NCBI RefSeq assembly: GCF_000203815.1
Contig: NW_004457723.1
Span: 620,001 to 684,000, forward strand
Source: Cavenderia fasciculata
Lineage: Eukaryota > Evosea > Eumycetozoa > Acytosteliales > Cavenderiaceae
DNA: 64,000 bases
Direction of reading: 5' to 3'
How positions within the stretch are numbered: position 1 is the stretch's first letter; every line of letters begins with the position of its first letter. The position numbers and the translations under genes are program-made. Shown here piece after piece: positions 72-64,000 of the stretch. The notes beneath the pieces are model-generated. The model saw nothing but the letters and a program-made list of their open reading frames with translations, had not been told where the DNA came from and made no database searches.

Positions 72-3000
72 CTAACTCATTGATTGTGATAATATTTGAC
101 GTTTAGGTTGTTGTTGAAGAGGAGGTTGTTTTGGTTCATAGAGCAGTGATTTTTCATACAACTCATCGTCGTTGTGTATTTGTCGTTGCATTAATTTTTG
201 TTGAAATATTTCATGTTGTCGCATTGGATATGGTACCTTTCTCCATACCTTCCAAGTTTTTACTACATTATTTATCTGTCTCATCTTTTCAAAATTAATA
301 AATATATATGATGATAGTTCCAATGGACTTGAAACATTATTTTCCTTCTTATTATTATTGCTGTCGTTACTTAATAAAGTTGGTTGAGAATCTGATACAA
401 CAAACATATCTTTAGTGTAGAGACCAAGGTATGGGAGTACAGGTGATTTACTTTGGGATAATAATTCACGATAACGTTTGTGATTAGATTCGGTTGAAAA
501 GATTTGTTGAAGTAATTGGTATTGAGCCATTGCCTTTTTCGATACCTTTTCCCATGTCAAGTTGATACGACGAATGGCATAATGTCCCAACCCGGTACTA
601 ATGGCATAGGAAGCATGGAAATTCTTGAGATTAAGCAGTGAATGACCAATATCTATAAACTTTTCAATGACCAATGCACGATGACTGGCACTTGAACTAC
701 AAAGGATTTCTGATCCAACCCATGAACTCCATCGATTAAATAGTTTGACAATTGCTTGGAAATTGGGACTTGATTCTGGCTTTGTAAATCTTTGCTTTAA
801 AAATTCACTCACAGGTAATTGTTTAAATGCCCTTTCATCCAACAATGTCATTTGAATGGCCACCTCTGTACTATCCAAATCAATTAAATTAAATTTCTTA
901 TTATCACTCAATGTACTTCTTGTTGCTGCTAATATAAAATTATTATTATTAGAAGAAGAAGAAGAAGAAGAAGTATTAGAATTTGGAGGGACTGATAAAT
1001 TATTTGGTTGAACTGAAGATGATGAAGAAGAAGTGATAGTCATTCGTCTAAGTGGTCTTTTTAAAATTGAAACTGGAGTATTATTTGGTTGATTTGAACT
1101 ATAAAGGTTTGGTGAAAGATTTGGTTGTTGAGCTGAGGATAAATTGGGAGAAGAGGTAAATGGAGAAGGTGATAATGGAGAAGATGAAGATGAAGTTGGT
1201 GATAATGGTGGAGTGGTTGCCATTGTCGTATTATTACTATTGCTATTAATGGTCAATGAAATTTCACCAGAATTATTTAAACTATTTGAATTACTATTTG
1301 GATTTGAATCTAATAGATATTTTGTAAAATCATCCAAATAGATGAGTTGTTTACTTTCTTCGTAGGAACTTTTACCAATAAATTCATTTGTAAATAATTG
1401 AATTTGTTTGGCAGTTTCTGAACCTTCCTCTGTCAACCAATACAATGGTTTAGATTCTACCAATGATTTGATGAGCAACAATATTCTTTCTCGTCGACGC
1501 GCAGCAAATAATCCACTATCCAAACCAATACCTTGATAGATACGTGTCAATTTGGATATATAATTGATTGTTGAAATAAAATAATCACAATGTGTAAGAT
1601 TAAATGTTTCCAACAATGATTCATCCTTGTAATAGATATCTGTCAATTTTAATATCAATTTTTCTATAGTCACAATCTTTAATACTTGTTTTCCTTTTTT
1701 AATTATATATTGTATACCATTTTCTTCATCCTAAAAAAATAAAATAAATATAAAATTAAATAAATTAGATTAGTTTATAAATATTATTTTTCTATTTCTC
1801 TATTTCTTCTTACAAATAAAATATTTAAATGATTTTGAAAAATAAAATTAAATAAATCAATTGATTTTGATTTATCAATATCATTTGTAGTTTGTAATAA
1901 TAATGGACCAAATATTTGACTCATTTTTAAATAAAATGATTTTTCCATTTCCAACAATTGTTTTCCATTCACAATTGTTTCTTGTTGTTGTAAAGATTTC
2001 TCTTTAACTTTAATTAAATGTTGAATAAATACAGAAAAGGTTGTCCAATGAATTTGAGATTGAGAAAATAATAGTGAACGTATACATGATGATTTGTAAT
2101 CAATATCTTCCACTTCGCAGACAGTCGATGTTAATAATTCCTCACTTGGAAGAATAGATGATGGTAATTGTTTGAAAAAATGAACCAATAATTGAACAAC
2201 TGTCAAGACTTGAATATTATCCATTGATCTATATGCATCTTCTTTACCTGGTGTCGTTGATTTGACAAGTGTTTCCAATTCTTCTGTCGATTCATTTAAA
2301 TTTTCATTTAAATAAATATTATAAAGTTCTATAGTTTCAGATTCCTCCTCTAATTGTTCATCAAAATATTCAATGATTTTAGTAATGAATAATGGACATG
2401 GTGAATCATCAGATAGACGAGTTTCTTCAATGGGAACACCAAAGATGGCTTCGTTACGATATTGATGAACTGTTTCATTGGTAGAATGGGATCTAGATAT
2501 CAACATCTTGTTGATACGATCCAATGATTCTTTGTTTTTTACAGTTGTAATCTTTACTCGTGTCATTAATTGACTTAATAATGTACCTGATCTTTCTCTT
2601 CCAGTTGGGGTTGGTGGTGGTGATGAAACTAGTGGTGGACTAGAAACCAAATTAATTGGTTGATCGAGCTCGGATGTAATATTTTCCAAACTTTTAGAAA
2701 GTTGATTTCTTGTAGATGAAGGAGTTGGTGGTGGTGATACTGGTGCTGGATGAATTGATGGTAATGGTGGTGGTGCCAGAATTGGTAAAAGTGGTGGTGG
2801 TGGTGTTTTACTTTCAAAGGTATCAAAAGTATCATTAGTATCTTCATGTCCAATTTCCTCATTTGCACCATCCAACTGATTTACAATTGTCGTCGTCGAT
2901 TCTTTTTCTTGTTCATGTTCTTTTTCCTTTTCATCTTCTTCAATGATAAGAGGAGGAGAAATCTTTTCTGGTGATAATAGGTAATCTTCTTTTTGTTGTT

Positions 3001-6000
3001 TTCTTTTTGATAGTCTAAGAGTACCTCCAATAAGATTTGCAAGTGGAAGAGGATAACTTGGTAATGATCCACTTCTTGTTCTACCATTTGATTCAATAGT
3101 TTGTGGTTTCTTTGATACAGATATTGAAGTAAATCTAATTCTACCAGAAGAAGAATTGGATCCACCACCATTATTATTATTATTATTATTATTTCGATGA
3201 TCCAAAAGATGTGAAAGGTTGATACTCAATTTCTTTGATTTTCTTCTTCTCTTTATAGTCTTTAATTCTTCTTCTTCCTCTTCATCATTGGTATCAAAAT
3301 TTTCAGACTCTGATTCTGATTGTTCTTGATCTTGTTCAAGATCTTCATCTTCATCTTCATCTTCTTCATCATCATCATCATCTTCATTACAAGTATCATC
3401 TTCCTTTACTGTTGATAATATTCTAATTGGTTGAATATTTAATTTTGATTTCCTATTCAATTGTTGTTTACATGTATTAAATTGTTTTATCAATGACGTA
3501 TATGCATTTTCTGTATTTTCAAACATTCCAAATACATACTAAATAAATAATTAAATATTAATACAACTATTCATAAATATGATTTCTTTTTTGATCTACA
3601 AACTTTTTTCATTGCCAAAGTAGTAATTTCAATTGAACTACCAATAATTATACTTGAAACTTTTTTAATACTTTTAATATCTGTAAATAATGATAATTTC
3701 TTCAAAATTTTAAAAAAATATTAATTAATTCTTCTTTTCATTTTCTTTTTTCTTTTTTCTTTTTTTTAACATACTTTAATTTCACTATTAAAAATCAAAC
3801 TATAGAAACAAAAATAAGAAGTGGTAATATAGATTTTACCAGCTTTTGAAACTTTTCTTCGATAGGCACATGGATGTTCAGAAATGGCCCTTTCACTAGT
3901 TGGCAAATTAAAAATATTGATAATATCTGCCTCTTTTCCCATTGCTGATGATATTGAATGTGGTGAAAGGATTTCTTTTGTCTAAAATGAAATAAATATT
4001 TAAAAAGTTAATTATATAATTTTTATCACTCCTCAATCGATAGAGTTTTAAATTTCAATAGACAACAACAACAACGATAAATATTAATGTTTATATAAAT
4101 ACCACTTTGGTCTAATATTAGGGTTTGGAGTGGATTAACCAATTGGATGGTTTAAAAAAACATAAAAAGGGAAGGACTGAAGATCAAATAAAGTGAATTT
4201 CCAATTATGTAATATGTTGTTATTGATTAAAATAAAATCCCTTTCGTTCAAATCAAATAACTGTTGTTGTTGTTGTTGTTGGTGTTGTTGTTGATGTTGA
4301 TGTTGATAATAATAAAAATGTAAAAAAAGGTTTTAAACCATTCGAATCTTTAAAATATATAAAGAGAGAGAGAGAGAGAAGGAGAGAGAAGGGAATCCAT
4401 TAAAATAATGGCATTATTTTATACCACGTTCCGTCGTTACATTCTCCCAACCCATCATCATGATCAAAAGTTAAAACAACCAAGTTGCCAAGTTGATTTT
4501 TGATATGATCTTTGTTTGATATATACTGTTTTGGAACTGGATCGGTTCGTTTTCAATATCGTTGTTGTGTTGTGTTGTTGTTGTTGCAGGAGAGGTGATG
4601 GAAGCAGTTTATATCACACCAACACCAACACACAAGCCGGCGTGGTCATTTGTGTGTTTTAAAAAAAATGTAGTAGTAGTGTCGGTGATTCAATTGTGAT
4701 TGTAATCAAAATTTTGAAGAAAAAAGTGAAATTCACCTCTTGTGTGTGTGTTGTGTTAAGATTGGTGGATTGTAGCAATTCTGGCATTGATGGTTTGTTT
4801 GTTTTTTGTTTATCTATCCTGTCTATAGAAAATCATTCATATGATATATCATGACTGACAATCAGTGTAGTGTAAAAAACAACAACAAAGTGATTGTATA
4901 CATACCATTAATTTAGTAGGTGATAAAGGCGATGAACTAGTCATGATTGGTGTAGTTGGAGTTGAGGAGGATGATGTGGTAGTAGTGGTTGGATGAATAA
5001 AATCTTTAAATTTGGAAATGATAGTTTGTTTCCTAGCTCCGCGTGGTGATGTCGGATTGCTGCTGTTCCCAACTCCTCCTCCAATTGAATTGGATCTAAT
5101 TCTAGTTGAACATTCTATAACTACCATATCTTCTTGTTCGTTTGCCATCATATTATTATTTTGATTATTTTGATTATTATTATTATTTACAATATCTTCT
5201 TTTTTGTTTTCTTCACATCTATTTGATTTATCAAATTCAATTCCAGAATCTGGATCACTACTACTACTATTGTTATTTATATTATTATTGTTTTTATGGT
5301 TATGATCTATTTTATTCAAAATAAAAGATGGCGCAGTATTATTATTATTATTATTATTATTACTATTATTAATGTTTTTGTTGTAATTAAAAGGCAAATG
5401 CTGGGGTGGTGAAAATGCAACACTATGAAGATGGTGGTGGAGGTTGCTGGGTGTAGCATTTTGCACAATGTTTATAGTAGTGCTACGAGTGGTGGTGGTA
5501 GTGGTAGAGGTATTTGTGGTAGAGGTGTTATTATGATTATTTAATACAAAAGTAGGAGGTGGTAGTGGTCTCTTGGAATTGATCAAGGAAGCCGCCCTTA
5601 TTCTTGGCACACCTAATTTCCATCCATTCCCACCACCGTCACGTCCATATTGTTCGATTACTGCGTTATTAATTGTTGTTGTTGTTGTTGATGTAACTGA
5701 TGAAGATGATGATATAGATGGTACACCACCGACAATGCTATCATCGTTACTAAATCTAATGCTATTGTTGTTTGGAAGAGATGAAGAGTATTGCTGCATA
5801 AGAGTTAAAGAAGAGGTTGGGGTTGAAGCAGCAGATGAGTCTCCTCCATTTATGGTTGTTGAAAGTAAAGGAGATGGTGGTTGTAACATTGTCATTTTTC
5901 TGTACATGTATATCGATTTGTTGTTTTGAGAGTATGTTTTAGGTTGTTGTTGTTGCTGTTTTAATGCATCAGATAATAAAGATTTATTATTATTACTATT

Positions 6001-48733: not shown

Positions 48734-51700
48734 GTTGTTGTTTTGTGATGATTGTTGATTAAATAATGGTGGAGTAGTACTCTCACTATTATATTTACGT
48801 TTGTTACCACTATTATCCTTTGTTGAAGGTGTTGACATATCCATACACATATCTTCAAATTCAAGATTATTATTATTTACAAAATTACTATTATTATTTT
48901 CCCCTCCTCTATTGTTATTACTGCTACTATTGTTGTTGCTATTACTATTATTATTATTATTATTATTACTATTAGTGTTGTTGTTATTATCCCTATTATT
49001 AATTATACCCATACTCATATCTTTAAATACCAAATCTTTACTTGATCCAACATTACTATTGGTATTACTGTTGGTAGTGCTAGTACTACCGATACTACTA
49101 CTGCTACTATTGTTGTTGGAAGTATTTAATATTGGTTGATTGATTGTTAACTTCATTTTCTTTGTAATCTTTGCTTCATCATCTGAAATGATATTTCTGT
49201 CGTCATCATCAATAAACATATTAGAGTTTGAATTGGATGGAACCAAAGCTGATGAATTGGAAGAAGTTGAAGACAAAGAGGCAATACCTCCTCCTCCACC
49301 GCCACCACCACTCAATGAAACATGGTGTGATCCTTTTTTGTCATCTTGTCCAACATTACCCCACATATCTATAATTAGAAAAGAAAAAATCAATTTTAAT
49401 TAGAAATCATTCAATTAAATATTTTCACAACAATTATAATTAAGTAACTTACTTCTACCAGATGAACAAAATAGATTTTTATACGATGATAAAACTCCAC
49501 TAAGGTTCTTGTTCAAATAATCAACTAGAATAGAATAAGCAAGTAAGTATAAATATATATATATATTTTTTGATTTGTTTTCTTTTTCTCAACATACTTG
49601 TTTTACCACCTAATAAAAGGGTATTTGCATTTTCAGAGATAAAAGAATAAAGAGCTTTGTTTGAAGAAAACTTTTGACCACTTGTTAATTCCAAATTATA
49701 AAGAGTGGTATGAACAATGACCTTCCATGATTTTGGTAAATGTGAAAGGGTCGAAGCCTTTTTCTCATTACACTTTGAACATTGATAAATATATCTAAAA
49801 TCAATATGACTTGGAATAATCATCTTTGGTTTACCTTCTAATAATTCAGATGCAGCATTTGGATATTGAACTTTACAAAGACTACATTGCAATGGAGTAT
49901 ATTTGGCTGTAGAAGTTTGATTTGAATGTTGTGGTTGTTGTTGACTATGATGATATGCTTGTTGAGTTGATGACGACGAAGAAGATTGATGAGATTGTTG
50001 TTGAGATGATTGGTGTTGACTTCCACTACCATGATGATGATGATGTGATGATGATGATGATGATGGTTGACTCTGAGAGGATGAGGAGTGTTGTTGATGA
50101 TGTTGTTGTTGTTGTTGATGATGTGTATGTGATGATGAGGATGACGACGATGATTGAATAACAGGTGGAAGACCTTCATCACCATCAGTATCAGTATTGA
50201 CAACTGCAGCACCAGGATTCAAACGTTTCTTGGCCACCTCTTTGCTAAGTACCAAGATACCTCTGCTATCAAACTCTACACGATCACGTTTCTTTCTATT
50301 ACACCACAATCGGTTGTTCATGACCGAGTTGACAAACAGACTTCTGCCCGACGACAAGATATAATTGATGATTGGTAAACTCACATCTTGCTTTGGATCA
50401 GACACCAAGTCCTTTTGATGTGATGCAATATACTGGAATATATCCTTTCTAGCATGATATCTAACTCCCTTTTCCATCTCTAGATTATGTAATGTTGTAT
50501 GTATAATCTTTGTCCTAAATAAATCAAAAATATATACATTAATTAATTAATTTGTTTAATCACATGTTATTTGTTTACATACCAAGATTTAGGATGATGT
50601 TTTAAAATACCGGGACCATTTTGACAATATTTACAAGAGTATTCATAGTTTTTGTCAAATGGACCGGGAAGTACTCGATTGAGACTAAACTCGAGAACAA
50701 TGTCGTTTTTACATTGGTTGCAGGTGATAGTTGCGGTCTTGTCGGCAGGTGTCTCTTCTCCTTCGGATTCCGTGTCTGATGGAGATCGAGAGGAAGAACG
50801 TGACGAACTCGAGATGTACTCGCGACGGTATCGACCGCCACCTCCCGAGTCACTGTCCGAACCAGACCGACTGTCACTGCGACTACGACTTCTTGATCGG
50901 CTACGACTGTGGCTACTACTATGGTTATTCTTTCCACGGCTACCACTACGACCACGACTATTACTTCTACTCATCATTCTATGGTCTTTATCATTGTTGT
51001 TGTGACCAATATTATTATTATTATTGTTGTTAGAGTTTGTTGTAGAGGAAATAGTATCACGATGCATTGCACGTTCACGTAGTGTTTCACGATCTTGCTC
51101 ACCGCCACTACTGATCGTTTCAATGGCGTTAATGTTACCTTCTCCCAATGGAGAATCGATGTTTTCATTGTCCAAACTCTCGACTTCGCTCGGTCTTGGA
51201 TTAGCCCATTTTCCAGTGTATGGTCCTCCAGAAACAAAATACCCTTTGTTATTAAAAAATGCCATTGATACAGCTTTTGATATATCAGCTGAAATCAAAA
51301 AAAAAAGAAAAAGAAGAAAAAGAAAAAGAAAAAGAAAAAGAAAAAGAAAAAGAAAAAGAAAAAAGGGGAAAGTTAATCAAAACTATACAACTATAACCTA
51401 TATAATACATTATACTTTTATACTTTACATACCTAAAGATTTATCATGAAGGAAAACATTTGGATATTTGACAACATAGGAAGTGACTTCAGTATGATGA
51501 AAGAAACGATTACCAGTTAACCTTTCCAAGTTGTACAATGCAGTATGAATGACACATTTCCAAGACTTGCCAAGATGAAAGAGCATAGGTGTTTTAGAGG
51601 AAGAGCAATTCTTACAAGTAAAAGAGTACTTGTTGTCGTGGAACCCTGGTATGACACGTTCCGACAGCTCTCTTACATCTTGAACAATCTTTTGATGACA

Positions 51701-52204
51701 TGTAGTACAAACAAGTGGTACCGAAGACGATGGTGATGCCAAATTGGTAGTTGCATTATTATTATTATTATTATTATTGCTATTGGTACTATTTGAAAGA
51801 TGTGGTGGTGATGAAGAGTTGCTGGTCGATTGGCCGTCATTTGGTGTTGTCACTGTTGGGGGTGGCGATGTTGCTGTTTTTGAACTTGACATGTTTAAAG
51901 AAGTAGATTGTTGATGATTATTGTGATGTTTATTACTGTTAGTATTATTTGATGGTTGTTGATGATTAACTGTACTATTACTGTTACTACTGCTACTACT
52001 TGATGATGATGATGATAAAGAAGGTGATGAAATCAAAGTTGTAGATGAACTTGAAGGTGAGGTTTCAATGATTGTATTGTTGTTGTTGTTTAGTTGATGA
52101 TTTTTTTTAGTATCTTCAGTTGTTGATGTTGATGTTGATGTTGATGTTGATGTTACAGTACTAAGGGTTAAATTGTCTCCAATATTACCTCCGCTACTGA
52201 TCAT
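47690..52204 (-). CDS. Protein with three Ash2-like zinc-finger/winged-helix modules
   Basis: Five exons: 52204-51433, 51288-50583, 50514-49598, 49524-49453, 49368-47690; 4,146 nt, 1,381 aa. Seen: three tandem modules separated by low-complexity linkers. Each has CxxC (VCTTCHQK, TCNQCKND, QCSLCKVQ), a 35-45 residue loop with VIPG/VLPG/MIIP, a second CxxC (TCKNC, SCKYC, QCSKC), a KSW-x5-HTxLxNLE helix, a winged-helix stretch, and a closing helix with LFV/YFV/LFC then W-x-N. The pattern resembles the N-terminal zinc finger plus winged helix of Ash2/ASH2L, a COMPASS subunit that binds DNA. No SPRY domain follows. The last exon is Asn/Ser-rich with a conserved-looking segment NIHDERVQQLVGFLEV...FRFLHRKSPIALKQES. 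Role inferred: nuclear, chromatin or DNA binding. Family assignment is by eye. Confidence 0.75.
51289..51432. repeat. GAAAAA hexanucleotide microsatellite inside an intron
   Basis: Intron 1 of the Ash2-like module gene holds a plus-strand GAAAAA repeat (about 51308-51364, roughly eight or nine units), so TTTTTC on the transcript. It sits just before the 3' splice site and would form a long polypyrimidine tract. Confidence 0.8.
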
Positions 52205-53229
52205 AATTTCATAATGATCCCTTTAATAAAGAAGAAGAAGAAGAAGATGATGATGATTGATGTTATTTGATGAAATAAATAAATAAATAAGTTAAAGTTG
52301 TTGTACTACTACTTTTTTTTTTTTTTTATAAATAGAGCAGTGTAAAAGAAATTTAATTTAATCTAAAATTGATTTGATTTTGAATTGATTTGATTTGATT
52401 AATCTATCTATCTATCTTTTATATTAATATATATATATCTCTAGTAACACACACACTAACTTATAAATAAATAAATAAATAAATAAATGAATAACCAAAG
52501 TCAACCAACTAACTTAATCTTTTTTTTTTAATGAATGAGAAAATAAAAATATACACTTGCTAGTAAGAAGAAGAAGAAGTTGTCCTTCCTATTATAAAAT
52601 TTTGTGATCACAAAAAATAGATAGCTCACTAGAAAGAAAACAAAATAAATATTATTAAACCCCCACAACCAATCATCCATCTTTTTTTTTAGTTTTTGAT
52701 CCAACCACCCCACAACCATTTCTATGAGAGCTTTTTTTGTTGTTGGTATATCTTATTAATTGTTTGAAACCTTGAAAATAAAATTCTTAGGATTAATCTC
52801 ATTCGGATATTATAATAAAAAAAAAAAGGGAAATTTGTCACAGATTATACAGACCCTCTTCACCCCGATGATAGTTTGTTTATTTGCCTTCTCTTTGAGA
52901 AATAAAATATGAAGTTCCCAAATATTGCATCTCTCCTACCGACCTCCTCTACCTTCTTTCTTTTCAATCAACAAGCTTTACTTTGTTGTTGGAAGAGGGG
53001 GTTTAATTTAACCCTACCCAACTTCTTTTTAATGTGTGTTAACCTTTCCTTTTCTTTTTTCATTTTGAGGGGGGCAACCAAGATGGAGAGTGGTGGGTGG
53101 TCATTGTTATTCACTCCCTCACCATCATATAATAATTTAATACCTAAAACTTTTTAATCGAACAATCAATCATCATTATTACTTCAGATCAACAACAACA
53201 ACAACAAGAAAGAAGAAGACAAGACGGAG
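52205..53229. promoter_or_regulatory. Divergent promoter region
   Basis: About 1 kb between two divergent starts. It holds a GAA/GAT trinucleotide run (about 52230-52258), T runs (52313-52328), TATC repeats (52401-52418), an AAATA-type run (52464-52492), and a CAA-run 5' leader (53191-53208) before the giant-gene ATG. A tiny upstream frame ATGAAATTATGA overlaps the ATG of the minus-strand gene. No further gene was seen; the ORF at 52909-53157 has no family features. Confidence 0.5.
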
Positions 53230-56200
53230 ATGATTAATAAATCGACAGATGCGTCTTCAATGGCAGCATCTGCAAATAACAACAACAACAATCAATCATT
53301 GAATATTAATGATATCATACCTCTTTCAACTATCATTTTGGTATGTATCTCTGGAGATAAAGATATGATATCTTTGCAAAGAAGAGAAGAGTTATATTAA
53401 TTTCCTTTTTTTTCAATTTTTGTTTTGTTTTCTTTTTTTTTTTTAAACTTTCAAGGGAAAAGACAATATTGAAGATGAAAGTAAATTATTGTTAACTGGG
53501 TTAATTGGAAAGATTGAATGGTCAACTTCACAACAAAGTAGAGTGAATGTACAGAAACGTAGAATCGGTAAATTCAAGTCACTCTTGGTGATTGACATTT
53601 GCATCGAGAAGCAGCTTCAATCGTCGACGTTAAAGTGGAATGTCGAGGAAGATCAGTTTGACAAGTTTCAATCACTCTTTCAAGAGGCGTTCAAGTACTT
53701 GATTGACAATGACCCGTTGCTAGTGGTTGGCAAGTTTCGCTTAATTGTCGAGTTTTATGATAATCATCCATACTTGGCTTCATTCTATATCGATGATCAA
53801 TCAACAAGTACTAGTACGACGACAACGACTATTCGATGTCTATTGGATTTGGATTGGTTAAATGAATGCAACAATGTAGAAGAGTTTGATCATTCCATCA
53901 AGATATTGACTCTATCTTTGGTACTAAAGTATTGGATAGAGTGTCATCGTGCAGTATCCTATCCTGCCAATGTTCAAAGAGATGCTCTTCATTCACTCTT
54001 TGGCTATATGTATAATTTACAAACATCAAATCATCCAAATTCAAATTCAAATACAAATACTTCCAATACTTCTACAACTTCTACAACTAGTACAACAAAT
54101 AATAGTGGAGATGATCAAATAATTAAAAGATTTAGTAAATTTTTAATTCAATGTAATCAAAGGTTGATTATGGATTCATCACTTTTATTTCATACAGTCA
54201 TGCAAGATATATTTGAATTGTATGATCAAATTCAACTATTGTTTAATCATTATAAATTAGACTATCCAATCAATTCATCCATGATTGAATATCTATTGTA
54301 TCAAAATGATACTCCCCTCATTGTAAATAATATCAACCAAGATCATACACATGCCACCTCATCAATATCATCATCAACATCAAAATCATTATCATTTTCA
54401 AAAAATGATAGACAAGAATTAATTGATTTACTCGACCGAGTAGATACAAAGATATCAATGTATTTGGGACAAATACATATTGATTTACCATACGACCGTA
54501 ATGCACTACGTCAAGCACTCGAGATTGGTGATACGACTGATCGTCGCCAAGCAAGTTATGAAGTGATCAAGACATTTAGTTCGAGTATCGAATCAAACAA
54601 TGCTATTAGACTGTCGAGCAAGATTAGAGAGAGTTGGCTCAATTCTCCGGAATCGTCTGTTCAACCAGTGATTGTGGTTGGTCGTGAGAGTAGAGCCTTT
54701 TCAAACCAGGCTTCTCTCTTTGCCAGTGCTGGATACATTTGTATCAACGATTCTATTCGTGATGCCATTGCAACTATTGACAGATTGGCATCAGAAACAA
54801 ATGTCCGTACCATTCTCAAGGGTTCTGAAGACGACTATCCATCTAGTATCCGACAGGATATAGTACAGGTGGTTGACAAACTAGCAAAAATGACTGTGCA
54901 CTTGTCACCGGCAGTTGCACGTCTTCGTGGTCTCGTAGCGAGTGTGCATGGAGGGTTAGCACCATCGACACAGATTTACGGTGGTATCCAACATTTGCGT
55001 GAAGCACTCATCATCGTGACACAAAAGAGTATGGCGTCAATTGAAGAACTACAAAAATCAACACTTGCACGTTTGGTTGAAGGAGTACATCGTAGAAAAG
55101 GGTACCATTACCAAACACACAACTCTCAGCCGGGTATACTCGACTCTACCGGATTCAAGACATTGTATAATATCTTGGAATCGTTGTATAGTCGTGCAAG
55201 GGGTGCTATTTGGCTAGAAGTGTATCGTCTGGAAGATGCAATTGGAAGTGTGCCAACTGTACCATCAAGCTTTAGTGTTCTCCTCCAACGACCAAGTGTC
55301 AGTGGATCAGAACGTTTCAGAGCCAACGAATTGGAAGCCAAGAATGAACAAGAACAAGTTTTACAAAAATTGGTTCGTATAGGTGGTGCCAATCTCTACA
55401 TGAGTCCGAGTAATGAATGGGTTGAGCATGCAACCGATATCATCGAGGCGGTACCACTCTTTATCTATGAAAAGACAATAGAGGTCGATGGTAAACACAC
55501 CACCGTCTTTGAAGTCGACCAAGAAGGCTTGGAGCAAACCATCAGACAATTGGCCGAGCATTGGACCAAGAATATTCGTCTCACCATCCTCTCTGAACAC
55601 TGTGCATTTGCCCGAGACATCATTTCAATTGCTCAAAATCAATCGGATCCATTTAGATTGTCGTTGGATGATATCATTGCTGTCACCTATTACATTGAAT
55701 CAGAATATGATAATCTTGCTGAAAAGGTTGAAGAACTAATAGAAACTAATTGGAAACAATCAAATTTTATTACTAGAATTGAATCTTTACGTTTATTATT
55801 ATTACCTTTAGATTTAACAAATGATGAAAAGTTTGAGTATGTTGAAAACAAAAAAAAAAGACAAAGACAAGATATTTAAAATTATAATTATATTTATTAT
55901 TTTTCTAGATTATGTAAAGAGATTGTAACAAAATCAATTATAATATTTCAATCAATAACAAAAGAAAACAAAGACAGAATATCATTTATGGCATTTAAAA
56001 AACAAAGAAATCTACCTGCTTTTCATTTATTAACTACAGAGGCTCCTGGTCTAGTTGAAGGTTTTATTCAAGCAATTTTAGAAGAAGAAATGGTAAATAT
56101 AAATATATCCTTTAATTAATTAACAATTAATTCTCATTCTCTTTTATTTATTTTTTTAGACATTAAAAAATATAATTGAATATCATAAATTAGAGAAATT

Positions 56201-59200
56201 GGTAAATGAAAAGATTAAAGAATATAATCAAGAGATTTCAAATTTTGGTAAAAAGGTTATCAATGAATTCAACTATACACCAATTGTTGAACAATACATG
56301 TCACAGCTATCAATCGATGAAAATACTGCCATTCTCAGAGTTGTAAATGATCATGTAGTCATTCAAAAACAAGTTTCATTATTAATCTTGTTAAATGATT
56401 TGGATAAATTAAATAACAACAATAATAATAATGATAGTAGTTTGGAATCAAAAAGAGTATTGGATATAATTAATCGATTAAATGGAGAGGAAAAGAATTT
56501 ATATAATATTAGAAATAATGCAATTGAAACTATATTTAAACAAAATATGAATGATAAGGAATTCCATCGATTCAATCCACAACATATTCAAAGAGATTTG
56601 GATGATATCTTACAGGTGATACAAACCAATCAAGTCTATTTGGATGAATACAAAAATTATTTGGTTTGTGAGGCACGTCAAAAAGCATTGGAACAAGCTT
56701 CTGAAAAAGAGTATCCAGATCTCTGTCTGTTGGATCGTCAGACCAAGTTGTATCGTTCAAGAACTGCTCTCTCTCGTACTTGTGCACGTCGTGAAGTGAT
56801 CTCTAAATACCAACTACACTATCAAATGACTAATCCTAGACTTTCGTGGTCTTGTGGTGCAGTCTTTTTAAACGAGAATTCAGATGAAATGTTGGTACGT
56901 CCAACTGGCAATAGAAAGAGATACCACTTTATCTACGGACCATCACGTGTCAACCTTGGAAAGGACGAGCGCAAGAGTGTCGAGATTTGGCCACAGTTTG
57001 TCGGTGCAACCGATCCACTTTGTGCCAAGCATGCCAAAGCGTTTTACTCGCTCATTAATCACCAACCGATCGTGCGAACCATCACCGCCGCTGAAAACCT
57101 CAAAGTGTCAGAGAACCAGTGGACTGCTCTGGTGCGGGCCGTTCGAAATGTCCAAGCTCTGTTTGTCGAGCGGTTGGGTGTGGGTGACATTGAAGATTTG
57201 GCATTCCAATTCAACCAGCGTGGAGGATTGGCAACTGCCGCCCAAAAAGAGTCAGAGGCATACATGTCTGGGCCGACTGCCGGCTACTGTATTCCAAAAG
57301 ATCTGCTCTTTAAACTGTTTGTAGTCACTCATCAAGACACACGTAAACTGTCTCATATTGGTATTCCAAAACATCTACATCCAATGATTGTACAGTTGAT
57401 GGTCGATGTCGCTTCGAAACAAGGTCAATTCCAATCGGCCAACGAATGGGAGAAATGGGTATCACAAACAATCTTGTCAAAAGAGTCGTTGGAGAAACGA
57501 TTCTCATCAAGTGGTACCACCACTAGTGGTGACGATGCAGCTCAACAAATATCAACCTACTTTAAACAATATGTCGAGTTGAATGGTGGTGTTGTTTTGT
57601 TCCACTTGACAAAGTTGTGTCAGATTTTGGGATCGGTTGGTGTGCCATCGCCACTCGTTCGATTCGGTCGTGATTTGCATTCGGCGTTGTGGAGTGGATG
57701 GGCAGAGAAAAAGATTACGCTGGGTGGCGAGCAGGTCAACCGGTCGGTGGTGTTCCCCATGACACGAGAGATACCCGAGTCGGGCAAACTGTCGTCGCGA
57801 CTCAACCCGTCGGCCGGTATTGCCGCAGAGGAGCAGCTGCGCGTACACTTGTTTGGCGTGTACAAGGGTGACGACGACCAAAAACCACCTCCAGACGTAA
57901 GATTTGCCTGGGTGATGCGAGCATTCCTTATTATGAGCGGTCACTATAAAGAGGTGGCATTGTCACTCGACGAGGAGGGTCAGACTGTTGCACGACTCAG
58001 TTGGCACGGTTTCCACCCCGACTCTACCGACATTGAGGATATCAAAGCACGTCAGTACTTGGCCCAACACTTTTTAGATGTAAATGACTTTGATCGTGCT
58101 GTTCCACACCACTGTCAAATGATCCAACATCTTCAACTACAATTCCCAAAGCATACGACGGTTGGAGACATTACAGTCACTGCCGTACCGGGAGTCAGCA
58201 GCGACGACCTTCTCGGGTTCTCTGCCGAGACACTGACACTGCTTGGCGAAGAAGCTGATCGCGCACAAGATATTCTCCGCGGTCGTGCGGGTATGTCGGT
58301 TGACCAGATGGCCGCCAACTCACGTCTGCACAACACGCTCGACGACTGGGCCGGCCCCCTCGCCAACCTCCCCCACAACGAGCTTAAAATCATCAAAGAT
58401 GCCGTGGGAGCCCGTGTACACCCTCTCGCACTACGTTTGCGTGGGCCAGGCGACAACTTTTTGCGCGATCTTCAGGCTCAGGATGTTGTTGTCTTTTCCA
58501 TCATCCATCCGCAGCTGCTCGCGCTCAACCCAGCACATCTACGCGACTTGATGCTCATCGGACGTCCCAACAGCGCCTTGTCGGCACTCGACCACATTTC
58601 GCAGGGTCGTCACCGATGTTGGTTCGAGAGAGACGTGATGTTGTGGTATGCTGCAGCACGTGCAATCGACCAAGACGGCAACCGTGTCGCCAAATGGACC
58701 GACCGAAACAAACTAGGAAGAAAAGCAGTCTACAAGGCATTTGGATGGGGTAACGATCATTACCAACCACTCCTAGGAACTGATCTCCGTGAGGAGGTCA
58801 ATCGTCTAGAGAACCGTGCCATGTTTGTGTATGCCATGCTAGAGCAGATTGTCGGTATCGATGCATCACGTCAAGATTACAAGGACCGATTGGTGGCAAT
58901 GGAAACAATGATGCAAGAGCAGTTGTTTAATCGATCCGCTGCTAACCGTGTAGGTGCGTCACCACTTACCCTTGCACCCGACCAGCTGCAACAAGAGATT
59001 GAAATACAAATACAATACGAACAACGTGTATTATTGGCAAACCGATTTAAAAAGCGTGATCAAACCATTAGAGAGTCGTTGGAAGAGGTGAGAGATGCTC
59101 CATTTATCCGTTCGATCAATCCTATTCGTTGGTTGGCATTGGGTGGCTATCTTTTGCTAAATGGTGCAGCTCCAAGATTTGCAAATAGAATATTAAATGT

Positions 59201-62200
59201 TGTTCAACGTGCATTTAGCCGTCTCAATCAAAAAGACCACATCTTGGATGAAACCAAATTAGAGTCATTCTTAGAGACTGACAAATCGGTTCAGTCGCTC
59301 ATTGTACCAATGTTGGCAACATCAAAAGTACAACTAAAAGATCGCAAAGGAAAGATGTTTAGTGTCAAGGCAAGTGAAGAACATCTAGAGACTGCAGTCA
59401 CTAGAAGAAAAGAACTCCAAATTCAATCTAAAAAGAATACAACTCTTAAATGGAGAGAGAATGGGTATCTCGCATCTGGACTACCACTCTATAGTAGTTT
59501 GACAAAAGTAGCCAGTCTAGATGTCATTGAAAAGACTTTATTAGCACCCATTAGAGATAATATAAAGTCACTTACAGATCACTTGGAAGTTAGAAACAAT
59601 GAACATCATACATTACAAGAAGAAAAGATTTATAATATGATTGGATCAACACTTAATCAATGTATAAAGACATTATTGGCATTGGTTAAATTATCGAGTA
59701 TGGATCATGCAAATGAACAACTGTTGGTTAAAACAATTGAACAACTTGGTAATCAAACCAAAGGAAAGGAAATTGACCTCAAATCTTGGGATCGTCTTAT
59801 AGGTAGTTATGAAGAATTTGGTCTACTCAATCAACTCTATGAACAAGCTTACAAACACTTGTTTGGTGGTGACCAAGTTAGATGGTTGGAATTTACGGCA
59901 ATTGGTTGTGAAATCATGTCGACACTGCTACTGTTTGAAAAGATGGCTGCACAATATCTTCTGACACCACTCGAAGATATCAATGAATCGGCATTATGGA
60001 GATCATTGGCAGAGTTTTATGCAAAGACTATTGATGATCATTACAGCGAGTATACTCCATGGGGTTTGGATCCAAAACGGTACCCTCGATTTGCCAATCT
60101 CTATTTTGACGATGTTGGTATCTTGAAGAAGCAATTCCAAGAGGAACAATACCGTCTCTATTGGAGTGCACATCGTCATCTCTATCCATTCATACGTGCT
60201 ATTGTAATGAATAAGGTTTCGTCGATTAAAAATACTCTGTCAGAATCTGATCAAAACCAATTATTTGGTAAATTGTCGTCCAATGAACAAGTAGAGATTC
60301 AACCAATTGGAGCATCTGCGCCACACCAATACGAACAATTGTGGAGAGTGTATGGTCAAATACGTGAAATTGCATTTATTAGAAATGATGGATTCCAAAT
60401 CCCACGTGTCTTTTCTAATCTCGATGCCAAAAAGGTATTGGATGTCACCAACAAGGTCAATCATGCATTCCTCAGTCCTGTTGGTAGAACTCATTATGGT
60501 AGAGCTTTAATGGAAGGTCCTACACTCAATGATAATCTATTTATAACAAGAGATGGTTCAATGGCTGAAATTCAAAATAACAGCAACAATAGAAGAGTTT
60601 TAACAATCAATGATGCATATATTTGGATATCTTTATCAAGTTATCGTCAACTTTTGGAAGAAGGAGAAGGAAATCAAAATATTATTGAATCAATAATAGA
60701 AAATGAAAAGAAAACAAAATATTTAAATATTTGGAGTGAATCTAAAGGTGTAATGATTGCAGCTAGATTCATTTCACCTGTTATTATTGGTAGTGTTGTA
60801 ACGTTGCATCATCATCGTTTAGAACATCAACTTTCAAATGCTGGTTATCCAACCACCGACAAATCACCTTTCCTTTACGAGTTGACATACAACAAGTCGC
60901 TCTATCCATTGATATTCAATCCACCCGACCAGACTGGTGTTTTATTGCCACCAGAAATCGACTGGTTGCAAGTAGAGACACACAAGATCAACAATGACCA
61001 AAAGATTATCGAACGAATCAAAGAACGTCTTTTACCTTTTGTTCAGACCTACCCTATTATCATTGTAAAGGGTGCCGCTGAATCTGGTGCTAGAAATTTA
61101 CAAAGATTCGATTTTAACAAGGATGATGAGAATGGTGGTGGGTGGGCAGAAACACTAAAGACTTGTTGTACATTTATTTTAAATGTATCTCGATCCCAAA
61201 ATGTGGTCATTCAAAGGGCAATCATCTCATCACCATTGTTTTGGATGAGTCAATCGGCTATTGACAGAATGGTAACTAGACAAATCAACGATCATGGTGT
61301 TAGTGTCGAGTTGAATCGTCATCCCAAAGACACTGTCTATGGTACTCTTCGTATCATCATGTCTGCATCATCTCCAACCTCTGAACCGTCGTCGTATCAA
61401 GATAATATATGGAAGGCATCTCATCCAATCGCACTCAATAGTCTGCAAATTGCTACCAATGTCGGTCGTCAAGGTTCACTCGAGATGTTAACACCCGACA
61501 TGCTATCAGACGCACTCAAAGACTTGTTTATGAAGCGTCTTGAAGAGGCTGGATCCAAAGTCATGCAATCAATGGTGCGATTTGGCCCAACCTATTGGAA
61601 CGAACAGATTAAACTGATTGGTGACAACACGCTCGACAGCTACCACAAGAGATTCCCACATGTCAGAGAAAAGGATGCCAACGGTGTACCCATTTGGTGG
61701 CCTAGATATTTGATGTTGGACTTTATCGCCGAACCTATCTGGAAGGATAAGCGAACTGATCAACTGGTCAGTACCGACGACATTAACAATTGCTCTATTC
61801 AACTACTCGATATTGTACCTGCGTCGTCCAAGACTAACCGTGTCGAGTCTGTCTTTACACTTATTGATAATCGCAATGGAGCAGAGTTTGAAGCTCAGGT
61901 GGTAGACGTTAGATTCTGGCAATTGGAACCAAATGTCGGTATTGGTCTTTGGCCAAATTATTGGAAACGTGAATTAGAACATCAACAACATCTCGTTAAA
62001 ACTGGTACCCAACCTGATATCCAATGGTCTCAAGTTGGTAAAAGTGATCGTATTGTTTTGGAAAACTTTTTAATAGTTGGTAAACAATTCATCTCCTCAA
62101 TCCCAAATTTAAATAATGTAGAATTAAATTTTAATCATGATAATGAAGATGAAAATCAAAATCTACCAATTGAATCATCATCATCATCATCAAATCCAAC

Positions 62201-63693
62201 TACTACTAGTACTACAACAACAAACATTTCTTCATCTTCCTCATCTTCAACAACTACAACTACAATTGATAAAATAATTAATAATAATGATTTAAATTTA
62301 GAAAAAGGTAAATAAAAAAAATATATTATCCTTTTTTTATATTATATAATATGTTTGTTTTTGTGTTATTAATCATTTTCTTTTTAATATTAAGGATTAC
62401 CTGAAATTTATTTAAAAAAAGGGATTGATTTTATAAATGAAGGAATATTTGGAAAGGATTTAATTTCTTTAAATGATAAAACCAAGGAAAGAATTGTACA
62501 ATATAGTTTGGATAGATTGACAAGTTTTAATCTACTTCCAACAAATATCGATATTTTAAATAATCCACTTTCCAATCCATACCATAGTTCTATCATTGAA
62601 TTGGATGAAAAGGCACCAACTCTTGCCATCATTGTTGGAAAGTTTAAATTAATGCATAATCATTTCTATCCATTCATGTCTGTTCGTTGTCAAGAAAATA
62701 GACAACTAAACATAATTGGTATACATCATAGTTGGATTTAAAATTGAAAATAAGAAACCTCATGTTAACCGATGTATCACCATGTCAAAGGATGGAAACG
62801 AGTTGATTGAATTTTCATCACTACGACCAATCCCATTTGACGCTTGTTATCTCGTGGAACTACCAAATAATATTGCAGGTGAAGAAGTAATGTTTCACAA
62901 GAAACTAGATAACATGTTGGGAAGAGAATGTGGAATCCAAGTACTCAACCCAAGTGACACTAGTAATGAAACATGTGATGATAAATATTGGATGAAATCA
63001 AAGTTTACAAATCTCTTACCAGTCGCCACACTTGAAAGAGATAAATGTTTGACTGATTCTCATATCATCAAATTATTACCAGATTCAACAACTGGTTATA
63101 TTGTTCAAGCTAGAAGAGGTACTACAGAATCTGAAAGTGTTCAATTTATTGGTGAAACGGATAAAGAATCGGTAGCAAATCAAATAATGGATAGATTCGA
63201 TGGAAATGATCAAATATTGTCAGACGTGGAAGATGATGAATTATTAGTATCACCATTTGTAAAATCAATAGGATCAACTCCATTTGTTTTAAGACTAAAT
63301 GCTTGTATTGGTGGATTAACCACATGTGCTGTGGTTCAAGCTGGTAGTAATCGAGAAACTATCATATCTCCTCATATTAGAGGTTCAAAATGGATTAGAT
63401 TCTCATCCATCAAAGATATTCTTCAAGATCACAATGGTAAAAAGTTTAATTCTCAACATTGGCAAAGATGGTGTGACTTGGCTCAATCCATTCGATCACA
63501 AACCAATCTACCAATTGTTGGAATTGATTTTATTGTGATTGAAAATCAACTATCAATCATCCCACTGGAAGTTAATGCAAGACCTGGTAGTCTTGTAATG
63601 TCTGAACAACCAGAGTTTGATCAAAATGGTGATTTTATAGATTCTAAAATGATCTCTCCTATTTCAATTTCTTTCTTTTCATCTATAAATAAT

Positions 63694-63774
<81 letters not shown>

Positions 63775-64000
63775 GATTCAAACACCAACATTACAATTCA
63801 ACAACTACTTTTAAATCAATTATCAAATTTAGAAGAATTTAAAAGATTAGAGATTATTAATAATAGATATAGTTGTAATGAAAAGGAAAAGGAAAAAGAA
63901 GATGAAAGATATTTGGATAGATTTGAAATATTTAAACAATTGTGTCATGGAGCAATTGAAAATGGATTTGATCAAACTGTGAAATGTGTATTAATAGCTT
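53230..64000 (+). CDS. Giant protein (>3,400 aa, partial) with two ATP-grasp-like regions
   Basis: Exons: 53230-53340, 53456-55836, 55909-56092, 56160-62307, 62395 to the window end; open at the right edge. Seen: a Ser/Asn-rich start; a long helical N-terminal region; a GC-rich central block (about residues 1170-1770, 57.0-58.8 kb) without recognised motifs. About residues 2520-2830 resemble an ATP-grasp core: IIIVKGAAESGARN, NVVIQRAI, TLRIIMS, then IATNVGRQGS. A second, clearer one spans about 62.95-63.6 kb: YWMKSKFTNLLPVATL, ELLVSPFVKSIGSTPFVLRL, PIVGIDFIVIE and LEVNARPGSLVM. Known: ATP-grasp enzymes form amide or thioester bonds through acyl-phosphates. Substrate and family are unknown to me. 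The frame breaks at about 62719-62741 (see findings). A long poly-Asn tract follows the second region. Confidence 0.7.
63688..63771 (+). repeat. AAT trinucleotide run coding poly-Asn
   Basis: Near-uninterrupted AAT codons (one ATT near the start) encode about 27 Asn in the giant protein, just C-terminal to the second ATP-grasp-like region. Typical dictyostelid coding microsatellite; length is likely variable between strains. Confidence 0.9.

Follow-up and report, generated by a model that had tools for sequence, protein, structure and literature searches.

A giant gene of Cavenderia fasciculata that joins a dehydrogenase-like fold, two ATP-grasp domains, and a galactokinase-like kinase in one chain

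The described systems closest to the gene reported here are the UDP-glucose/GDP-mannose dehydrogenases (e.g., UGDH, GMD, and CalS8; TIGR03026 and PF00984), the ATP-grasp ligases Ddl, RimK, LysX, and DcsG, galactokinase and other GHMP sugar-1-kinases, bacterial FKP and a zebrafish glucuronokinase, and the giant proteins of Omnitrophota. The gene lies at the end of a 64,000-nucleotide stretch of the Cavenderia fasciculata genome (contig NW_004457723.1, positions 620,001 to 684,000; here called the window) and continues past it, encoding about 4,012 amino acids (aa). Its single chain contains a dehydrogenase-like fold, two ATP-grasp domains, and a galactokinase-like GHMP kinase, and this composition is well supported. 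We propose, with about even confidence for and against, that the protein is a multifunctional mega-enzyme of bacterial origin that activates and ligates nucleotide sugars, probably uronic acids.

The dehydrogenases have about 450 residues, whereas the corresponding core of the giant protein has about 1,150; the core also differs from them in the GxGxxG loop for nicotinamide adenine dinucleotide (NAD), in having Ser for the Glu of the PEF/PER motif, and in its TIGR03026 score, which is below the cut-off. The ATP-grasp ligases are similar to the giant protein in the fold of its domain 1, the profile of its domain 2, and the E-x-N motif of both, but domain 1 lacks a sequence match to ATP-grasp enzymes and shares its chain with the dehydrogenase fold. 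The motifs GR..GH.D, SSSSAL, G..D, and GLGG are common to the GHMP sugar-1-kinases and to the kinase domain of the giant protein, which differs from them in lying at the C terminus of a protein of 4 kaa (thousand amino acids) and in its amoeba score of 21.7 against a Pfam cut-off of 22.3. In FKP and the zebrafish glucuronokinase (available part of PMC3938481), a sugar-1-kinase is likewise fused to or located beside nucleotide-sugar steps, and FKP-like kinases adjoin two bacterial relatives of the core (L023, 3.5e-36; L031, 5.2e-39); the pyrophosphorylase domain, however, was not found in the giant chain, which carries the dehydrogenase fold and the ATP-grasp domains instead. Giant Omnitrophota proteins are the subject of PMC10066038 (available part), and Omnitrophota proteins of 3.9-6.1 kaa are among the closest bacterial relatives (the closest being 42-46% identical), but a shorter core gene (about 2,400-2,730 aa; the short form) represents the present family in other phyla. 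Among the matches listed from the open-licence PMC literature, there was neither a description of the family nor a characterised giant protein that explains the gene. Its relatives bear automatic database names such as "ATP-grasp domain-containing," "GHMP kinase N-terminal," "UDP-glucose/GDP-mannose dehydrogenase family protein," and "galactokinase/mevalonate kinase-like."

Domains of the chain

Modelled on a bacterial relative, the core is computed to be a UDP-sugar-dehydrogenase fold inflated about 2.5-fold, with the three-domain arrangement of UGDH that marks the nucleoside diphosphate (NDP)-sugar dehydrogenase family. A profile of the core (24 bacterial rows) matched UDP-glucose dehydrogenase in the PDB (8e-7). 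UDPG_MGDP_dh matched 4 of 12 relatives scanned together, and NCBIfam NDP-sugar dehydrogenase matched 5 of 12 (best, 9.7e-17). The curated family score failed in all three relatives scored (39.8-50.6 bits versus the TIGR03026 cut-off of 189.8), two of which exceeded the cut-off of PF00984 itself. The catalytic-Cys motif GYC.PKD is present in 85 and the K/N motif ExxKxxxN in 78 of 101 long proteins, the window protein included in both counts; this set (P0001-P0046, the window's gene, and locus proteins of >1,500 aa) also holds unrelated neighbours and a few near-duplicates. For the helical middle that follows the core, no known fold was matched when it was compared inside a large model.

The predicted structure of ATP-grasp domain 1 has an ATP-grasp fold, nearest to the Ddl/RimK/LysX/DcsG kind; its 19-row profile gave no ATP-grasp match in the PDB, and it was the structure that settled the identity of the domain. 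K, AESG, RN, TNVGR, and EPN are invariant in all 19 aligned rows, including that of the window, and we take K, AESG, and EPN, from their order rather than from a bound structure, to correspond to the known glycine-rich-loop Lys and E-x-N metal sites. The motif of this domain was detected in 25 locus proteins, and in each of them the domain and the core share a chain. ATP-grasp domain 2 is identified by its profile (16 rows, including the window's), which matched 31 PDB sequences at E ≤ 1, nearly all of them ATP-grasp enzymes by name, with RimK, LysX, and D-Ala-D-Ala ligases on top (2.8e-5); in its motif, GxD...E-x-N-x-RP, D, N, R, and P are invariant in 16/16 rows and E is nearly so. The window exon of this domain alone matched only TIGR02291 (E = 0.012), and two ATP-grasp families matched 2 of the 12 relatives each. 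Both ATP-grasp regions proposed in an earlier note on this DNA are thus upheld, domain 1 by the structure model and domain 2 by the profile, and the motifs it quoted lie where it placed them and are conserved (19/19 rows in region 1; 16 rows in region 2). That note would have given up the idea had profile and structure searches returned no ATP-grasp fold; domain 1 indeed has no profile match, but the fold appears in its model, and domain 2 is matched by profile.

The kinase follows past the window, where the last exon matched GHMP_kinases_N (PF00288) with an E value of 2.5e-4. The same model exceeded its cut-off in relatives P0013, P0025, and P0043 and matched 6 of the 12 relatives scanned together; NCBIfam galactokinase (gal_kin) matched 5 of 12 (best, 2.3e-10, in relative P0010). 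The gene carries the GHMP motifs GRDRVFMGHSD, SSSSAL, GNNAGAAD, and GLGGS, and the SSSSAL ATP loop, the catalytic Asp motif, and the GLGG motif are also present in the dictyostelid-clade relatives read. A search for stand-alone relatives of the C-terminal part yielded only two proteins. Pfam and NCBIfam scans of the window exons gave nothing above cut-off.

Relatives, bacterial gene order, and descent

The earlier note had called for homologues to be sought in bacteria and other amoebae, and they were found in dictyostelids, Pelomyxa schiedti, Omnitrophota, and other bacterial groups. Protein searches matched Heterostelium album, Acytostelium subglobosum, Polysphondylium violaceum, Dictyostelium purpureum, D. 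citrinum, P. schiedti, and m51a1_g168 (presumably Mastigamoeba, judging by the prefix); the relatives in the five named dictyostelids have 3.8-4.2 kaa. D. purpureum and D. citrinum were thus matched and no D. discoideum protein was, through loss, different annotation, or a limit of the search. Residues 480-1950 were matched by 24 proteins at E ≤ 0.001, the ten best being 46-60% identical over 98-100% of the region, which shows that the gene is not a chance open frame; 18 of the 24 have no Pfam domain. An Omnitrophota protein of 4,160 aa is 46% identical, and two others are 42-43% identical over about 2,570 columns. A second, alignment-based search added mostly proteins of about 2,620-2,730 aa, together with two of 4.2-4.4 kaa and two shorter ones.

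A genome scan located 46 loci in Omnitrophota, Latescibacterota, Gemmatimonadota, Methylococcaceae (including Methylovulum, Methyloglobulus, and Methylotetracoccus), Armatimonadota, Myxococcales, Acidobacteria, and others. The spread is patchy (8/285 genomes of the phylum of L011; 7/201 of the family of L022). Homology to ATP-grasp 2 was detected at 33, to GHMP kinase at 20, and to GalU at 4 of the 46 loci, some of the queries having been taken from these same loci; five of the 13 loci without ATP-grasp 2 homology have <0.7 kb downstream. Thirty-nine loci are short form, of which 32 were usable (a core no shorter than 1,500 aa, followed by 1.7 kb or more of sequence). With distance limits set after the gene maps had been viewed, ATP-grasp 2 homology starts -22 to +230 bp from the core end in 22 of these 32, and of the 20 among them that have at least 3.3 kb of room, 12 show GHMP homology no more than 1.2 kb further on. 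At L016, L017, and L038, an ATP-grasp gene lies upstream on the opposite strand. The neighbouring kinase varies by lineage, being FKP-like (two tested), of another GHMP type (Methylococcaceae), or galactokinase-like when fused. Computation thus shows that these modules occur in bacteria either fused in one chain or encoded side by side.

Other features of the bacterial loci were noted alongside. The giant Omnitrophota neighbours at L011 368-10456, L014 22305-29909, and L015 22951-31062 have a mosaic make-up that draws on SIS, DUF4954, FBPase, HAD, receiver, PGM/PMM, or WD40 domains, three such neighbours having SIS with DUF4954, FBPase with HAD, or PGM/PMM with WD40; the giants upstream in L011 and L013 share 48% identity across 2,277 columns. 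By eye, histidine-kinase-like genes lie upstream of the core at ten loci (L023, L024, L031, L036, L040, L043, L044, L046, L049, and L054), most of which also have an NtrC-type regulator and five an HDOD-like protein. Genes tested downstream of the core are FabI in L031 and a nickel-pincer isomerase in L023. L051 and L056 are very divergent Omnitrophota members (5.3-5.7 kaa) on long branches, and the blocks that they share are ordered differently in the two.

Two trees were built from a set of 79 segments (from which 4 duplicates and 5 short pieces had already been removed), the first from 65 after near-duplicates and short pieces were dropped and the second from 30. In both, the amoebae form one clade adjoining or inside the bacterial long forms and far from the short forms. 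P0019 and P0020, which were labelled bacterial in the first tree and amoeba-like in the second, after the first had been seen, fall inside the amoeba clade in both; these two sequences start mid-core, as would a single exon of an intron-bearing gene. Nesting of the amoebae within the bacterial long forms is favoured by these trees, though not proven. It depends on branches that set apart P0015 and P0017, sequences without a stated source (98-99 by the Shimodaira-Hasegawa-like approximate likelihood ratio test [SH-aLRT]); in the 30-segment tree, the branch that also sets apart L012 has an SH-aLRT of 89, and the 65-segment tree does not resolve how L012, the remaining Omnitrophota, and the amoebae branched. 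A 30-segment tree that unites all the bacterial long forms in a single clade, a grouping named after the first tree had been seen, was not rejected by the approximately unbiased test (p-AU, 0.091). The simplest reading is a transfer from bacteria, most likely Omnitrophota, to an amoebozoan ancestor, because the family is otherwise bacterial in the searches made.

Proposed reaction and competing explanations

We infer the following reaction and product. The GHMP kinase would make a sugar-1-phosphate, which a separate GalU-type enzyme would convert to an NDP-sugar. The dehydrogenase-like core would bind this NDP-sugar and act at C6 by way of its conserved Cys, Lys, Asn, and Asp, through thiohemiacetal or thioester chemistry. 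One or both ATP-grasp domains would activate a carboxylate, most simply C6 of the uronic acid, and join it to an amine or another nucleophile. The enzyme would thereby yield an (NDP-)uronic acid in amidated or conjugated form, destined for a glycan or a small molecule.

Several observations weigh against this proposal, and NAD oxidation by the core is the main doubt about the mechanism. GRxSRAFxNQ replaces GxGxxG in 78 of the 85 GYC.PKD proteins (the other seven being P0015, P0017, L051, and four pieces), with the second Gly replaced in 78/78; the two loops are equated by their place, which in the model follows the first strand. The Glu of the PEF/PER motif, a residue with a role in dehydrogenases of the UDP-glucose/GDP-mannose family, is Ser here (Y.PSRV in 80/85 GYC.PKD proteins; Y.PER in 0/85). 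Because both the NAD loop and this Glu are changed, ordinary NAD oxidation is doubtful, and, as the fold and the Cys motif are kept but these two family features fail, we do not file the core as an ordinary NDP-sugar dehydrogenase. For the dehydrogenase fold, the whole-chain root mean square deviation is mostly 17-19 Å in the best rows, and Foldseek gave the large models low TM-scores (top rows, 0.44 and 0.20 by target length). No nucleotidyltransferase domain was found in the chain by Pfam and NCBIfam scans of the exons. Finally, amoeba ATP-grasp 2 has Gln at the Lys of the KP..G loop, where 8 of 10 short-form rows have Lys; Gln is also present in the two other short forms, L023 and L030, and in four of the five Omnitrophota long forms (L012-L015), the fifth, L011, having Lys.

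The altered NAD loop is where the strongest rival begins. The core may be a scaffold or a Cys-based acyl-transfer site fed by ATP-grasp 1 (acyl phosphate to thioester to amide), making the protein a ligase with a thioester relay and no use of NAD. This is possible, if rather unlikely: the NAD loop and the PEF/PER Glu have changed but the Cys and Lys motifs have not, and ATP-grasp 1 shares its chain with the core in the 25 locus proteins mentioned above. The GRxSRAFxNQ loop, however, is itself nearly invariant, and it probably continues to bind some ligand that carries phosphate, which might be a dinucleotide bound differently. We know, moreover, of no NDP-sugar-dehydrogenase fold that acts as an acyl carrier.

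The kinase and GalU genes found near the core in Methylococcaceae would also suit a route that salvages or synthesises UDP-glucuronate or a related NDP-uronate, with the ATP-grasp domains as auxiliaries. The Methylococcaceae kinase is suggestive of glucuronokinase; searches place it nearest to heptose kinases and mevalonate kinase. The fusion of the zebrafish GHMP glucuronokinase to a putative pyrophosphorylase (available part of PMC3938481) counts in favour of such a route, which we nevertheless consider unlikely: it has no need of two ATP-grasp domains, ordinary dehydrogenases are about 450 aa long, and other lineages have fucokinase-like or galactokinase-like kinases instead.

The earlier note had suggested an amide ligase or a peptide-like synthetase. 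Its ligase cores are supported, being closest to D-Ala-D-Ala ligase, RimK, LysX, and DcsG, but the synthetase label accounts for just part of the chain, and a peptide or amide synthetase without sugar chemistry is improbable in view of the dehydrogenase fold, the sugar-kinase-like GHMP domain, and the GalU neighbours, which point to sugars. A nucleotide-sugar pathway with ligation fits better because the chain has the dehydrogenase fold and a galactokinase-like kinase and because the same parts lie side by side in bacteria. An assembly chimera, contamination, or a pseudogene, for which the one frame break speaks, is very improbable given the introns, the single place on a 1.9-Mb contig, and the relatives in five other named dictyostelids.

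A bolder reading, which we advance tentatively, is that these proteins constitute a novel class of mega-enzyme, in which a dehydrogenase-derived core that has given up its usual NAD use and kept its Cys works with two ATP-grasp ligases and a sugar kinase to make a new sugar-acid conjugate. The class would be encoded by neighbouring genes in scattered bacteria and by a single 4-kaa chain in Omnitrophota and amoebae, the whole giant gene having passed to the latter.

Gene model, surroundings, and significance

The window (G000:C7:620001-684000) belongs to a 31.0-Mb genome of 21 contigs, and the portion of the gene past its limit was read from L009 (G000:C7:680001-690000). The exon model, on the + strand, runs from the ATG at 53,230 to about 65,693 in seven exons; this count treats the frame break at 62.7 kb as a gap, without which the last three coding blocks reduce to two exons, with the split at 64,325/64,397. 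Inside the window, five exons hold 10,430 bp of coding sequence (about 3,476 codons), in agreement with the earlier note's more than 3,400 residues in five exons, one exceeding 6 kb. The frame breaks once, between 62,738 and about 62,764. Residues up to 62,738 and those past the break each align to 8/8 dictyostelid-clade relatives, five of which are named; the break may be an assembly error or a real lesion, the two being indistinguishable here. A 13-nucleotide micro-intron at 62,719-62,731 was rejected, as residues encoded inside it align to 8/8 relatives. No second copy turned up elsewhere in the genome: the query had 25 further matches, every one of which overlaps its Asn-rich end (the best, L002, shows just an Asn run there); a bacterial ATP-grasp 1 query matched a single place, and a plasmid search with exon 4 gave no match.

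Table 1. Coordinates of the giant gene and its features in the window
Feature	Position	Strand	Remarks
Exon 1	53230..53340	+	aa 1-37; ATG; GT donor at 53,341
Exon 2	53456..55836	+	aa 38-831; N-terminal region, then putative first Rossmann strand of dehydrogenase-like fold from aa ~440 (placed by motif and fold of Methylovulum relative)
GRESRAFSNQ, at position of NAD GxGxxG loop	54680..54709	+	aa 446-455; GRxSRAFxNQ in 78/85 proteins with GYC.PKD
Exon 3	55909..56092	+	aa 831-892; contains TTEAPG (aa 873)
Exon 4	56160..62307	+	6,148 bp; aa 893-2942
Predicted central and C-terminal parts of UDP-sugar-dehydrogenase-like fold	56871..58703	+	aa ~1130-1740
PSRV	56,940	+	In dehydrogenase-like core
ENLKVSEN	within 57,090-57,116	+	In dehydrogenase-like core
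GYCIPKD	57,282-57,302	+	In dehydrogenase-like core
Helical middle	58761..60443	+	aa 1760-2320; AlphaFold2 model m69f17336c514, residues 1-561
ATP-grasp domain 1	60444..62099	+	aa 2321-2872
KGAAESGARN, ATP-grasp 1 glycine-rich loop by motif order	61068..61097	+	K, AESG, RN invariant in 19/19 rows
LEPNVGIGLW, ATP-grasp 1 E-x-N motif	61923..61952	+	E, P, N invariant in 19/19 rows
Fifth exon in window	62395 onward	+	Exon model
ATP-grasp domain 2	62395..63675	+	aa ~2943-3365; profile A6 to RimK/LysX/Ddl, best 2.8e-5
Single frame break in assembly	62739..62764	+	8/8 relatives align on both sides; intact relatives exist
LEVNARPG, ATP-grasp 2 E-x-N metal-site motif	63565..63588	+	N, R, P invariant, E nearly so, 16 rows
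Run of 26 Asn codons	63697..63774	+	Low-complexity loop after ATP-grasp 2
Last coding bases in window	63960..64000	+	Galactokinase-like GHMP kinase (aa ~3470-4012) beyond, to ~65,693

Elsewhere in the window, six of the ten open frames tested between 72 and 39383 have ordinary Pfam domains (i.e., RasGEF, RhoGAP, methyltransferase, UBR box, P-type cation ATPase, and AP-5 zeta). On the minus strand at 49521-52222, three adjoining open frames appear by eye to share a repeat-like Cys-rich module (CxxC ... CxxC), followed in two of them by an "HTTLYNLE"-like tail.

These results give an identity to a family of proteins of 2.4 to more than 4 kaa, most members of which have no Pfam domain. Fusion and gene order tie the family to a sugar pathway that is testable in the cultured methanotroph Methylovulum miyakonense HT12, and a dehydrogenase fold with its Cys motif kept and its NAD loop altered makes the chemistry itself a question. 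For the amoebae, the gene would be a case of a 12-kb bacterial multi-enzyme gene that has been kept, and, given a single transfer, kept from the last ancestor shared by dictyostelids and Archamoebae onward.
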